Assembly: GCA_949529445.1 (NCBI GenBank)
Contig: CATISA010000018.1
Span: 1 to 64,000 of the forward strand
From: Alphaproteobacteria bacterium UBA4588
GTDB lineage: Bacteria; Pseudomonadota; Alphaproteobacteria; Puniceispirillales; Puniceispirillaceae
DNA: 64,000 bases
Reading direction: 5' to 3'
Every line of letters starts with the position of its first letter. Position 1 is the first letter of the stretch. This document shows positions 34,556 to 37,989 of the stretch, piece after piece. The position numbers and the translations under genes are program-made. A model generated the notes under the pieces. That model was given only the letters and a program-made list of their open reading frames with translations, made no database searches and was not told the DNA's origin.

Positions 34556-34900
34556 ATGACTCCCCGTCTCACAACAGAACTTCTTGTAAAAGCAAGTATT
34601 CGCGCTGCTGAACAGATTGGCATATTTGCAAGCATCGTGCGTCATGGCGATGATAAGGCAGGAGCGCTTTTCGTTGAGTTGGATGTTGCGCCAGGACAGG
34701 CAGCGCTTCTGGTGCGGCGGAGCAGTTTTGAGGGTGGTTTTGAGTGGGATAGGCTGACTGGTGAGGGATTTGTTTCTGCACAGGACGTCTCAGAGCGATT
34801 GGCGCGTGAAATTGACCGTGACCCTGATTGCTGGGTCATTTCTGTTCAGGATAATCAGGGGCGCAATATTTTTACCCTTGAAGAGCAGTCAAAAAATTAA
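34556..34900 (+). CDS. DUF1491 family protein
   Basis: A 114-residue protein typical of the DUF1491 family, with TELLVKASIRAAE, GDDKAGALFVELD, and the C-terminal DPDCWVISVQD. No function is assigned. An alphaproteobacteria-restricted family as far as I recall. It is 61 bases after DUF1674 and is followed by the HisD-like gene. Confidence 0.88.
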   Translation: MTPRLTTELLVKASIRAAEQIGIFASIVRHGDDKAGALFVELDVAPGQAALLVRRSSFEGGFEWDRLTGEGFVSAQDVSERLAREIDRDPDCWVISVQDNQGRNIFTLEEQSKN

Positions 34901-35016: not shown

Positions 35017-36354
35017 ATGTCAGACGCCATTATCATTCATACGCTCTCGCAGCTGAACATAGAACAGATCCGCACATTGCAGGCCCGCACCGAAGATGAC
35101 CTTACCCAGTTTACTGAGAAGGTTATTCCGATCATTGACGATGTAAGGTTACGTGGTGATGATGCTTTGCATGAGTATGCCACGAAGTTTGATGGTGCAG
35201 ATATGGATGGCAAAGCTATCCTTGCGAGCTCGCAGGAGATCAAGCAAGCCTATGACAAGCTCGATGGCAAGCTGATAGAGGCACTTGAATATGCTGCTGA
35301 TAATATTCGCAGATTTCATGAACGCCAGAAGCCAGAGGCTGAATGGCAGATGGAAATTCGCCCCGGCATCTTTGTCGGAGAGCGTGCCTACCCAATAGAT
35401 AAAGTCGCACTCTATTCACCGCGCGGTAAGGGCTCCTTCCCGTCGGTGACATTAATGACGGCAATACCAGCAATTGTTGCTGGTGTGCCAGAGCCGATTA
35501 TTTTGACGCCGCCTGGACAGGATGGGATGATTGACCCGGCAACATTGGTAGCTGCTGATTTGGCTGGTGTATCGCAGATTGCCAAAGCAGGCGGTGCGCA
35601 GGCAGTTGCAGCGGCCGCCTTTGGGACTGCCTCTATTCCGAAATGTCGGAAAATAGAAGGGCCGGGGAGTCCATGGTTTGTTGCTGCAAAACGCTTGCTT
35701 GCCAATAAGATAGACTCGCGCCTTCCTGCTGGACCTAGCGAAGTTATTATTTTTGCCGATGGCACTCTTGACGCCCGCCTTGCAGCGCTTGATATTCTGA
35801 TTGAATCAGAACATGGTGCCGATAGTTCAGCCTTTCTTGTGACCACATCTGCAGAATTAGCACAGCAGGTGACGGCTATTCTGCCGGAATATATGGCGCA
35901 AATGTCTGATGAGAGGGCTACTTATGCCCGTGCAGTCCTGACAGGTAATAATGGCGGGATTGTGCTGGCAGAGACAAATGAAGATGCCTACCGGTTTATT
36001 AATGAATATGCACCAGAGCATTGCCAAATTTTATCAGCTGCGCCGGATGCACATATCGCAGCTCTGACAACAGCATCTGAAATTCTGACAGGCCCTTACA
36101 GTGCAGGCTCACTTGCTAATTATATGATGGGGCCGAATTGCGTATTGCCAACATCCGGTGCAGCACATGCCCATTCGCCCCTTGGTGTTCATGATTTTAT
36201 TCGTACAGCATCTCTTGGCAGGGTTGAAGCTGCCGGTTTTGACGAAATGGCGCCGCTAACCGAAATATTTGCTCGTTATGAAGGGTTTGATGCTCATGCA
36301 AATGCTGTTTCTGATATTAGACGCGCAATACTAGCCGAGAGTGAGGAAGTTTAG
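35017..36354 (+). CDS. HisD-family dehydrogenase with altered metal site
   Basis: A 445-residue member of the histidinol dehydrogenase family, with AGGAQAVAAAAFG, PAGPSEVIIFAD and the catalytic pair E334-H335 (APEHCQ). By alignment with E. coli HisD the metal ligands are Q259 to E263, H262 to H266, D360 to N368 and H419 to H427; H367 is C375 and GPGN is GPGS. Canonical HisD keeps these, so I withhold the name hisD. It may oxidise another amino or hydroxy substrate, or be an unusual HisD. No his genes are nearby. It is next to dusA, one base pair beyond its stop. Confidence 0.82.
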   Translation: MSDAIIIHTLSQLNIEQIRTLQARTEDDLTQFTEKVIPIIDDVRLRGDDALHEYATKFDGADMDGKAILASSQEIKQAYDKLDGKLIEALEYAADNIRRFHERQKPEAEWQMEIRPGIFVGERAYPIDKVALYSPRGKGSFPSVTLMTAIPAIVAGVPEPIILTPPGQDGMIDPATLVAADLAGVSQIAKAGGAQAVAAAAFGTASIPKCRKIEGPGSPWFVAAKRLLANKIDSRLPAGPSEVIIFADGTLDARLAALDILIESEHGADSSAFLVTTSAELAQQVTAILPEYMAQMSDERATYARAVLTGNNGGIVLAETNEDAYRFINEYAPEHCQILSAAPDAHIAALTTASEILTGPYSAGSLANYMMGPNCVLPTSGAAHAHSPLGVHDFIRTASLGRVEAAGFDEMAPLTEIFARYEGFDAHANAVSDIRRAILAESEEV

Positions 36355-37416
36355 GTGAACCCGCTCTTCAAGCAATCTGCCAGCACAGGGTCTAACAGAA
36401 AGCTTTCTGATGCTCGGCGCCTATCTGTCGCGCCGATGATGGATTGGACAACGCGCCATTGCCGCTATTTCCACCGGCTTCTGGCACCTGAAGCGTTGCT
36501 CTTTACAGAAATGGTCACAGCGGAGGCTATTTTACATGCGGGCCCAAAGCGGTTTTGCCAGCATGATGCCTCAGAACATCCGCTTGCATTGCAGCTTGGC
36601 GGCGCAGATGCAGAGCGGCTCGCGGCAGCTGTTGCTGCGGTTGGGCCATTTGGGTTTGACGAAATTAATCTAAATGTAGGATGCCCGTCTGATAGGGTTC
36701 AATCTGGCCGGTTTGGTGCGTGCCTCATGGCAGAGCCAAAACTTGTTGCAGGGCTTGTGCGTGCGATGAAGTCTGAAACAGAACGGCCGGTCACTGTTAA
36801 ATGCCGTATTGGGATCGATGATATGGATCCCGAAGAAGGGCTTGATAGATTTATAGATATTGTGGGTGGGGCTGGCGCTACTGTAATTTATCTCCATGCT
36901 CGCAAAGCATGGCTTAACGGGTTGAGTCCAAAAGAAAATAGAGATATACCGCCGCTTGATTATGATCGTGCGGCGCGACTGGCTCTACGATACCCAGAGC
37001 TTGATATTATTCTTAATGGTGGGCTAACAGATAGTAATCAGATTTCAGATGCAATTCTGCCGCTAAATGAGATGTATGGCGCCGCTGTTTTTGCAGGCGT
37101 GATGGTTGGTAGGTCAGCTTATCAGACGCCTGACAGGCTAGCAGATATGGCAGCAGACTATTTTGGTCACTCATCTGCTGATAGATATGATGTTTTGCAG
37201 GCAATGACGCACTATGCTGCAACGCAGATGCAAGACGGTATTCCCCTACATGCGATAACGCGCCATATGTTGGGACTGTTTCACGGTAAAAAAGGCGCCC
37301 GTCTCTGGCGGCAGCGTCTTGGCGAAGAAGCTCGAAATGAGGGCGTATCTGCGGATTTAATATTAATAGCGGCATCATCATGCCTCGCACTATTATCCAC
37401 TGAAAGGGTTGCTTAA
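36355..37416 (+). CDS. dusA: tRNA-dihydrouridine synthase A
   Basis: An FMN enzyme that reduces uridines 20/20a in tRNA D-loops. The TIM-barrel start LSVAPMMDWTTRHCRYFHRL is diagnostic of DusA and the catalytic cysteine is C110 in NLNVGCPSDRVQ. The GTG directly after the HisD-like stop is the start shown; no clear ribosome site is seen, so translation may be coupled. 353 residues, slightly longer at the N-terminus than usual. Confidence 0.94.
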   Translation: MNPLFKQSASTGSNRKLSDARRLSVAPMMDWTTRHCRYFHRLLAPEALLFTEMVTAEAILHAGPKRFCQHDASEHPLALQLGGADAERLAAAVAAVGPFGFDEINLNVGCPSDRVQSGRFGACLMAEPKLVAGLVRAMKSETERPVTVKCRIGIDDMDPEEGLDRFIDIVGGAGATVIYLHARKAWLNGLSPKENRDIPPLDYDRAARLALRYPELDIILNGGLTDSNQISDAILPLNEMYGAAVFAGVMVGRSAYQTPDRLADMAADYFGHSSADRYDVLQAMTHYAATQMQDGIPLHAITRHMLGLFHGKKGARLWRQRLGEEARNEGVSADLILIAASSCLALLSTERVA

Positions 37417-37989
37417 ATGAGTGTGCAGAAAACAGAGTCGAAACCAAAACACCGTGGCTATCTGGAATTTGGCCCGCTTTTACTCTTCTTTGCGACAAAC
37501 TATTTTACCAAAGACATTATGCTGGCAACGGCTGTCCTGGTTGCCTCAACGCTTGTTGCTCTTGGCCTGTCTTGGACATTAGATAGGCGGGTCCCAAAAC
37601 TTGCACTTTTTGGGTGTATTGCTGTCACGCTATTCGGGGGGCTTGCGCTACATTTTGATGATGAGTGGTATATCAAGATCAAACCAACAGTGATTAGTGG
37701 CGGGTTGGCGCTATTTCTTGCTGGTGGGCAGCTTCTGAATAAGGCCCCGCTGAAAGCCCTGCTAGGGCAACAAATGGCGCTGGATGATGAAGGCTGGCAA
37801 AAGGTAACATGGGTGTGGACAGCGATGTTTGCCGTATCTGCATGCGCGAATGAAATTGCATGGCGGTTACTCTCAACAGATGACTGGGTTACCTTTAAAA
37901 CCTTTGGTCTTACTGGTATATCCGTCGTTTTTGCTCTGATGACGATGCCGATTATCGCAAAGCATACAAGTGACGAAAAATACCGTTAG
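37417..37989 (+). CDS. YciB/IspZ family inner membrane protein
   Basis: A 190-residue multi-spanning protein related to intracellular septation protein A (YciB), with LEFGPLLLFFATNYF and the later KVTWVWTAMFAVSACANEIAW motif. About five to six hydrophobic segments. YciB acts in envelope integrity and cell length control in E. coli. The ATG follows the dusA stop directly, suggesting co-transcription with it. Confidence 0.88.
   Translation: MSVQKTESKPKHRGYLEFGPLLLFFATNYFTKDIMLATAVLVASTLVALGLSWTLDRRVPKLALFGCIAVTLFGGLALHFDDEWYIKIKPTVISGGLALFLAGGQLLNKAPLKALLGQQMALDDEGWQKVTWVWTAMFAVSACANEIAWRLLSTDDWVTFKTFGLTGISVVFALMTMPIIAKHTSDEKYR

Follow-up and report, generated by a model that had tools for sequence, protein, structure and literature searches.

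Histidinol dehydrogenase (HisD) is a textbook zinc enzyme; mammals lack it, and it has been put forward as a target for drugs. Of the metal-site residues of the Medicago enzyme, the aspartate is a constant zinc ligand. Until substrate arrives, the glutamine is paired with Glu397 (E. coli E356) and Ser277 (S237); histidinol binding brings this glutamine to the zinc and releases Ser277 for NAD+ (PMC5585171). The same work places Asn251 (E. coli N211) in contact with NAD and shows that His408 (E. coli H367) meets the substrate through its backbone carbonyl (PMC5585171). The equivalent of Asp360 is essential in CpHpsN, of which the D352A variant is inactive (PMC11382572).

The gene described here occupies positions 35017–36354 on the forward strand of the window, by which we mean the whole 64,000-nucleotide stretch of DNA that was analysed. 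The host genome (1.93 Mb, 98% complete) is that of a marine member of the SAR116 family. The open reading frame is intact and encodes a putative variant histidinol dehydrogenase of 445 residues that matches PF00815 (430 bits) and TIGR00069, the hisD family (407.5 bits against a cut-off of 243.8), over its full length. An AlphaFold model (pLDDT 85.5) supports the fold, and its top PDB matches are all histidinol dehydrogenases; because residues 372–387, the metal loop, have pLDDT values below 50, we drew no geometry from it. We refer to the PF00815 subfamily that includes this product as HisD*.

Directly upstream, on the same strand, lies a DUF1491 gene (34556–34900; PF07372), a neighbour kept at 18 SAR116 loci. 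Pfam assigns this reading frame to DUF1491 and not to DUF2948, the usual alphaproteobacterial hisD neighbour; the DUF2948 locus of this genome is elsewhere and holds hisG. The tRNA dihydrouridine synthase gene dusA (36355–37416, forward strand) begins at the base that follows the HisD* stop and is probably co-transcribed with HisD*, and a gene for an ispZ/yciB-like septation protein follows (37417–37989, forward strand). Farther downstream, between 38141 and 43345, is a row of genes for a corrinoid-binding protein (MtgC/MetH-like), a small PF13769 protein, an MTHFR-like protein, a pterin-binding methyltransferase and a RACo-type corrinoid reactivase. This row resembles a split MetH-like or B12-dependent demethylation set, and its position next to HisD*–dusA–ispZ is conserved in several SAR116 genera. 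We rejected the window neighbours as a clue to function: dusA, ispZ and rsmB are housekeeping genes, and the corrinoid set is a separate unit. The first-pass annotation had stated that no his operon is nearby, and tblastn searches of the whole window with hisA, hisB, hisC, hisE, hisF, hisG and hisH agree, giving no match at E 1e-3 with a working positive control.

Ligand positions in the HisD* metal site

We compared the protein with E. coli K-12 HisD, whose zinc ligands are Q259, H262, D360 and H419, in a MAFFT alignment. H262 is retained as H266 (35812–35814), H419 as H427 and the catalytic bases E326–H327 as E334–H335 (36016–36021), whereas Q259 is replaced by E263 (35803–35805) and D360 by N368 (36118–36120). 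H367 is C375 (36139–36141), and the NAD-contacting N211 is S218 (35668–35670), which turns GPGN into GPGS. All of these assignments, made at first pass from the sequence, were reproduced. The alignment adds three further changes, namely G133 to R136 in the NAD pyrophosphate loop (35422–35424; PGG to PRG), A212 to P219, and E356 to G364 (36106–36108), the last removing the partner of the glutamine ligand. The serine S237 is kept as S241, and the imidazole-binding E414 as E422 (36280–36297, together with H427).

These differences recur across a table of 67 sequences that comprises 37 HisD* proteins and 30 others (17 canonical and 13 HpsN-like). Position 259 is Glu in 37/37 HisD* and Gln in 30/30 others, and position 360 is Asn in 37/37 and Asp in 30/30; the two occur together in every HisD* protein and in 0/30 others, a full coupling that marks the E/N pair as the core of the change. 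Ser replaces N211 in 36 of the 37 (Asn in 30/30 others) and Arg replaces G133 in 36 (Gly in 17/17 canonical sequences). Position 356 is acidic in none of the 37, Glu in all 17 canonical and Val in all 13 HpsN-like sequences. Position 367 is more variable in HisD* (Cys in 19, Ala in 14, His in three and Asn in one). No HisD* protein departs from the catalytic dyad, H262, H419 or E414, and position 237 is Ser or Thr. The cofactor-ribose aspartate D59 is retained in 36/37 and Q188 in 30/37 (Q195 in the window protein), which would favour NAD+ over NADP+. The ratio dN/dS between the window gene and its nearest relative is ~0.07–0.11; given this low value and the presence of identical substitutions in 23 genomes whose proteins differ by up to ~40%, the changes reflect neither sequencing error nor decay.

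A changed charge had been suggested for this site, and the layout of charge is indeed altered: a carboxylate has moved from position 360 to position 259, and the acidic residue at 356 is lost. Because the ligand set (carboxylate, amide, His, His) is conserved and two positions are traded, the swap does not imply that zinc has been lost. The inactivity of CpHpsN D352A counts against a functional N360 in HisD* unless Glu259 compensates for it. The most economical view is a compensated swap in which Glu263 would act as the charged ligand in place of Asp360 and Asn368 as the neutral one, with the substrate held on a divalent metal, probably Zn2+. As the canonical glutamine joins the zinc only upon histidinol binding, thereby freeing the serine, the swap should alter the substrate gating of NAD+. 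The residues R136 (beside the pyrophosphate), S218 and P219 point to cofactor binding having been adjusted together with the metal site. Because the contact of Medicago His408 runs through a backbone carbonyl, Cys or Ala at 367 need not change the chemistry.

The first reading also raised a changed metal, which is possible but is not suggested by a ligand set that is the same in swapped positions. In its specific form, this alternative holds that the site binds a metal such as Mn2+, Fe2+ or Co2+ in vivo and that histidinol is still converted to histidine, so that it is a variant of the explanation we prefer and overlaps with it in confidence. It draws on the change at both non-histidine ligand positions, on the altered site charge that follows from the loss of Glu356 and on the in vitro activity of HpsN with various divalent metals (PMC11382572). 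We nonetheless consider it unlikely, as the ligand types are unchanged as a set (Glu, Asn, His, His versus Asp, Gln, His, His) and the neighbourhood gives no pointer to another metal.

Phylogeny and distribution of HisD*

Whether the same residues define a clade had been named as a check, and they do: in a tree of 67 sequences, 37 of them HisD*, built without the diagnostic columns, HisD* is monophyletic with support of 100/99. HpsN-like sequences form a separate clade (100/100), and HisD* groups with HisD, apart from HpsN. The window protein falls outside the HpsN clade and lacks its T237, V356 and Q/D ligands, so that tree and motifs together rule out an HpsN-type enzyme. Canonical HisD lies outside the HisD* clade; E. 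coli HisD forms a long branch beside it, and its position is uncertain.

Within the SAR116 family, HisD* is present in 23 of the 61 genomes searched, across seven genera and at 61–100% identity, and all 23 carry E, N, C, S and R at the five sites. Outside this family, it is encoded by 23 of 385 genomes sampled across the class, and it is known from Rhizobiales, Rhodobacterales, Halomonas, Granulosicoccaceae and Rhodospirillaceae-labelled metagenome-assembled genomes (MAGs), on 111 plasmid records (residues checked in nine) and, as a homologue with 43% identity, in the Bacillota species Monoglobus. The deepest HisD* branches are two alphaproteobacterial families, f136 and f161, and the three proteins that retain H367 all belong to the deepest branch, consistent with a later loss of this histidine. 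The SAR116 sequences are nested among later branches, with catabolic and plasmid relatives, and not beside the members found in his clusters.

Searches of the open-access literature for SAR116, Granulosicoccus and rhizobial HisD variants returned no published description of the subfamily, nor did we find a member with a published assay or structure; the solved structures of HisD relatives that we found are all outside HisD*. HisD* is thus a widespread branch, previously unsplit, that has probably not been described as such. Under the automatic label 'hisD', no fewer than three kinds of enzyme are combined: HisD, HisD* and HpsN.

hisD and HisD* in the SAR116 family

The host genome carries three PF00815 genes: the window gene, a gene on contig C75 and a contig-end fragment on C157. 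The latter two have Q/D/H ligands, T237/V356 and the GDK signature common to the HpsN-like clade; the second, canonical hisD that the first-pass annotation had advised looking for is therefore absent by PF00815 search. Other steps of histidine biosynthesis are dispersed, with hisE–hisF–hisA–(unknown)–hisH–hisB on C14, hisG on C133 at a DUF2948–hisG–UPF0262 locus and hisI on C9. All SAR116 genera are said to have genes for all 20 amino acids, in a statement for which the data are not shown (PMC8547437), and the gene content makes the host organism a presumptive histidine prototroph. Its genome has no urocanase, so a role in histidine degradation (hut) is unlikely here. The earlier suggestion of a new substrate finds no support for this copy, which is the only non-HpsN-type hisD-family gene beside a near-complete his pathway. 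That annotation had also named, as a finding that would refute its reading, a gene standing as the only hisD-family member of a histidine prototroph; here the gene is the sole member that is not of HpsN type.

Across the 61 SAR116 genomes, 23 have only HisD*, 28 have only a HisD that scores as canonical, none has both and ten have neither, nine of these ten being less than near-complete. This exclusivity is significant (Fisher p = 3e-9), although the genomes are related and it probably reflects one or few events. The remaining genome, G030 (98% complete), lacks both HisD types and hisB and is a probable histidine auxotroph, as expected where the pathway has been lost. hisB is kept in 22/23 HisD* genomes, the exception being G042, which is 73% complete.

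The ancestral locus points to a replacement. Genera with canonical HisD read murA–DUF2948–hisD–UPF0262–LMW phosphatase–infA–maf, in the same order as Rhizobiales. In HisD* genomes, all 17 of the old loci found read DUF2948–hisG–UPF0262 without hisD (murA is seen upstream where the stretch reaches, and a contig end truncates one locus), and in five canonical genomes recovered by the same search hisD is present in the slot. The order murA–hisG–hisD in Halomonas makes it likely that hisG and hisD were adjacent in the ancestor. It thus seems that, in half of the SAR116 family, HisD* has taken over from the ordinary enzyme, and it would there stand in for an ancestral hisD lost from its old place.

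The two halves of the family differ across most of the his pathway. In canonical-HisD genera, hisB lies inside a 528–648-residue reading frame of the hisC–hisB fusion type (in G015, L282 4089–5765), and G015 has a long hisG; in HisD* genera, hisB is a separate gene for ~200 residues, and hisG is short.

Genomic contexts and the role of HisD*

Beyond SAR116, HisD* is associated with histidine biosynthesis genes in f136 (three genera, 99% complete) and f161 (100%), in which it is the sole PF00815 gene per genome and belongs to a his cluster involving hisB, hisH, hisA, hisF and hisE. In f136 it lies between hisH and hisB; in f161 (G391) a hisC–hisB fusion on the same strand begins 38 bp downstream of it, and hisH, hisA and hisF come next. 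HisD* is thus the sole candidate for the hisD step in its own genome and in 22 relatives, and it sits inside his clusters in these two families. The Granulosicoccaceae and f35-type genomes examined likewise have no canonical HisD. In f35/Rhodospirillaceae-labelled MAGs (L281, L284, L267 and L123), a divergent hisG–hisB–hisH–hisF–MFS–hisA set stands beside mtnA, a class II aldolase gene, HisD* and an M19 dipeptidase gene, and some such MAGs carry additional hisA/hisF homologues; this set may represent a second, modified histidine-like pathway.

Other copies accompany a canonical hisD. Rhizobiales have both types, and Halomonas combines hutG–hutU–hutH–transporter–HisD* with a canonical hisG–hisD elsewhere. 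In a Hyphomicrobiales MAG (L097), a module of luxR, a DMFA2_C-like hydrolase gene, ABC transporter genes and HisD* adjoins hutH, hutG and hutU, and upstream genes resemble hutC, hutF and hutI by eye. At L097, L080 and related Rhizobiales loci, a LuxR regulator, an NMT1-type ABC transporter and HisD* accompany the DMFA2_C protein (N,N-dimethylformamidase beta-like), which could possibly hydrolyse an amide to feed HisD*. Rhizobial and rhodobacterial plasmids join HisD* to a hisC-like transaminase, an SDR, a PotFGHI-type ABC transporter, an alcohol dehydrogenase and an alpha-hydroxy acid oxidase, sometimes with a HutC-type regulator. A conserved HisD* operon on plasmids of Sinorhizobium, Shinella, Pacificitalea, Paroceanicella, Klebsiella and Pantoea (L286–L294), some of them conjugative, comprises genes for the ABC transporter, alcohol dehydrogenase, a hypothetical protein, SDR and alpha-hydroxy acid oxidase, often with the transaminase and regulator. 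A catabolic role is probable for the copies that lie close to hut genes or on rhizobial plasmids, and the plasmid group could use a substrate other than histidinol; histidine metabolism recurs in the contexts of the subfamily. Pseudomonas has a histidinol-utilisation operon, hinLGD, on which our literature search gave nothing and which we do not use as evidence.

As many relatives belong to plasmid or catabolic operons and coexist with a canonical hisD, the substrate may not be uniform across the subfamily. The window protein itself might accordingly act on another amino or imidazole alcohol, with histidinol oxidized by an HpsN-like paralogue or an unrelated dehydrogenase. The copies in Rhizobium, Sinorhizobium, Shinella, Klebsiella and Pantoea plasmid operons, with their transporters, oxidizing enzymes, transaminase and HutC-like regulator, and the coexistence of both types in Rhizobiales and Halomonas, would fit such a role. 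We judge it improbable for SAR116, where the two types are strictly exclusive and the ancestral-locus hisD is lost solely in HisD* genera; the f136 and f161 clusters, with HisD* as their only PF00815 gene, also speak against it. Moreover, HpsN-like paralogues are also present in SAR116 genomes with a canonical HisD, and CpHpsN is inactive on histidinol (PMC11382572). A degenerate or non-catalytic homologue, for which one could cite the changes at two metal-ligand positions, at an NAD contact and at a conserved histidine, is very improbable in view of the low dN/dS, the identical substitutions across 23 genomes, the dyad and remaining ligands invariant in 37/37 and the lack of an alternative HisD candidate in the genome; dN/dS and fixation rule out a sole, decayed HisD.

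We therefore think it likely, with good though incomplete confidence, that the window gene encodes the histidine-biosynthetic histidinol dehydrogenase of its SAR116 lineage, with a rewired zinc site, and that it replaced the ancestral hisD. The protein would oxidize L-histidinol to L-histidine in two NAD+ steps, using the E334–H335 bases, the domain-swapped His427 and Glu422. The best reading is thus of an ordinary metabolic role, the last step of histidine synthesis, presumably performed by an unusual enzyme in place of the standard one. A bolder and distinctly more tentative extension is that the metal site is inverted, with a permanent Glu and a switching Asn, an altered substrate-gated NAD+ order and possibly a different metal preference; that the enzyme displaced canonical HisD in several lineages; and that plasmid and hut-linked members diversified to other imidazole or amino alcohols. 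A large natural subfamily in which two ligands are always traded together offers a ready test of ligand roles in a substrate-gated mechanism, and SAR116, which is abundant in the ocean, offers an example of a core biosynthetic gene being cleanly replaced.

Compared with known systems, HisD* is closest to canonical HisD (E. coli 1KAE, Brucella and Medicago 5VLD; EC 1.1.1.23), which provides its top PDB matches by sequence and fold. The two share the PF00815 fold, Glu326–His327, H262, H419, S237, E414 and a genomic role in histidine synthesis, but they are only 31–40% identical, and HisD* has Q259E, D360N, N211S and G133R, lacks E356 and usually has Cys or Ala in place of H367. HpsN, the R-DHPS 3-dehydrogenase (8V35 and 8WWE), has the same fold and catalytic Glu–His, and both it and HisD are zinc enzymes that perform a four-electron alcohol-to-acid oxidation, a property predicted for HisD*. 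Its identity to HisD* is lower (22–34%), the tree excludes HisD* from it, and HpsN-like sequences hold the Q and D ligands, mostly with T237 and V356. The plasmid 'hisD' genes of Sinorhizobium, Rhizobium, Shinella, Klebsiella and Pantoea, annotated merely as hisD, belong to the HisD* subfamily itself, with E259/N360/R133/S211 and 50–53% identity to the window protein, and differ from it in A367, in I/V356 and in their placement within transport and oxidation operons.
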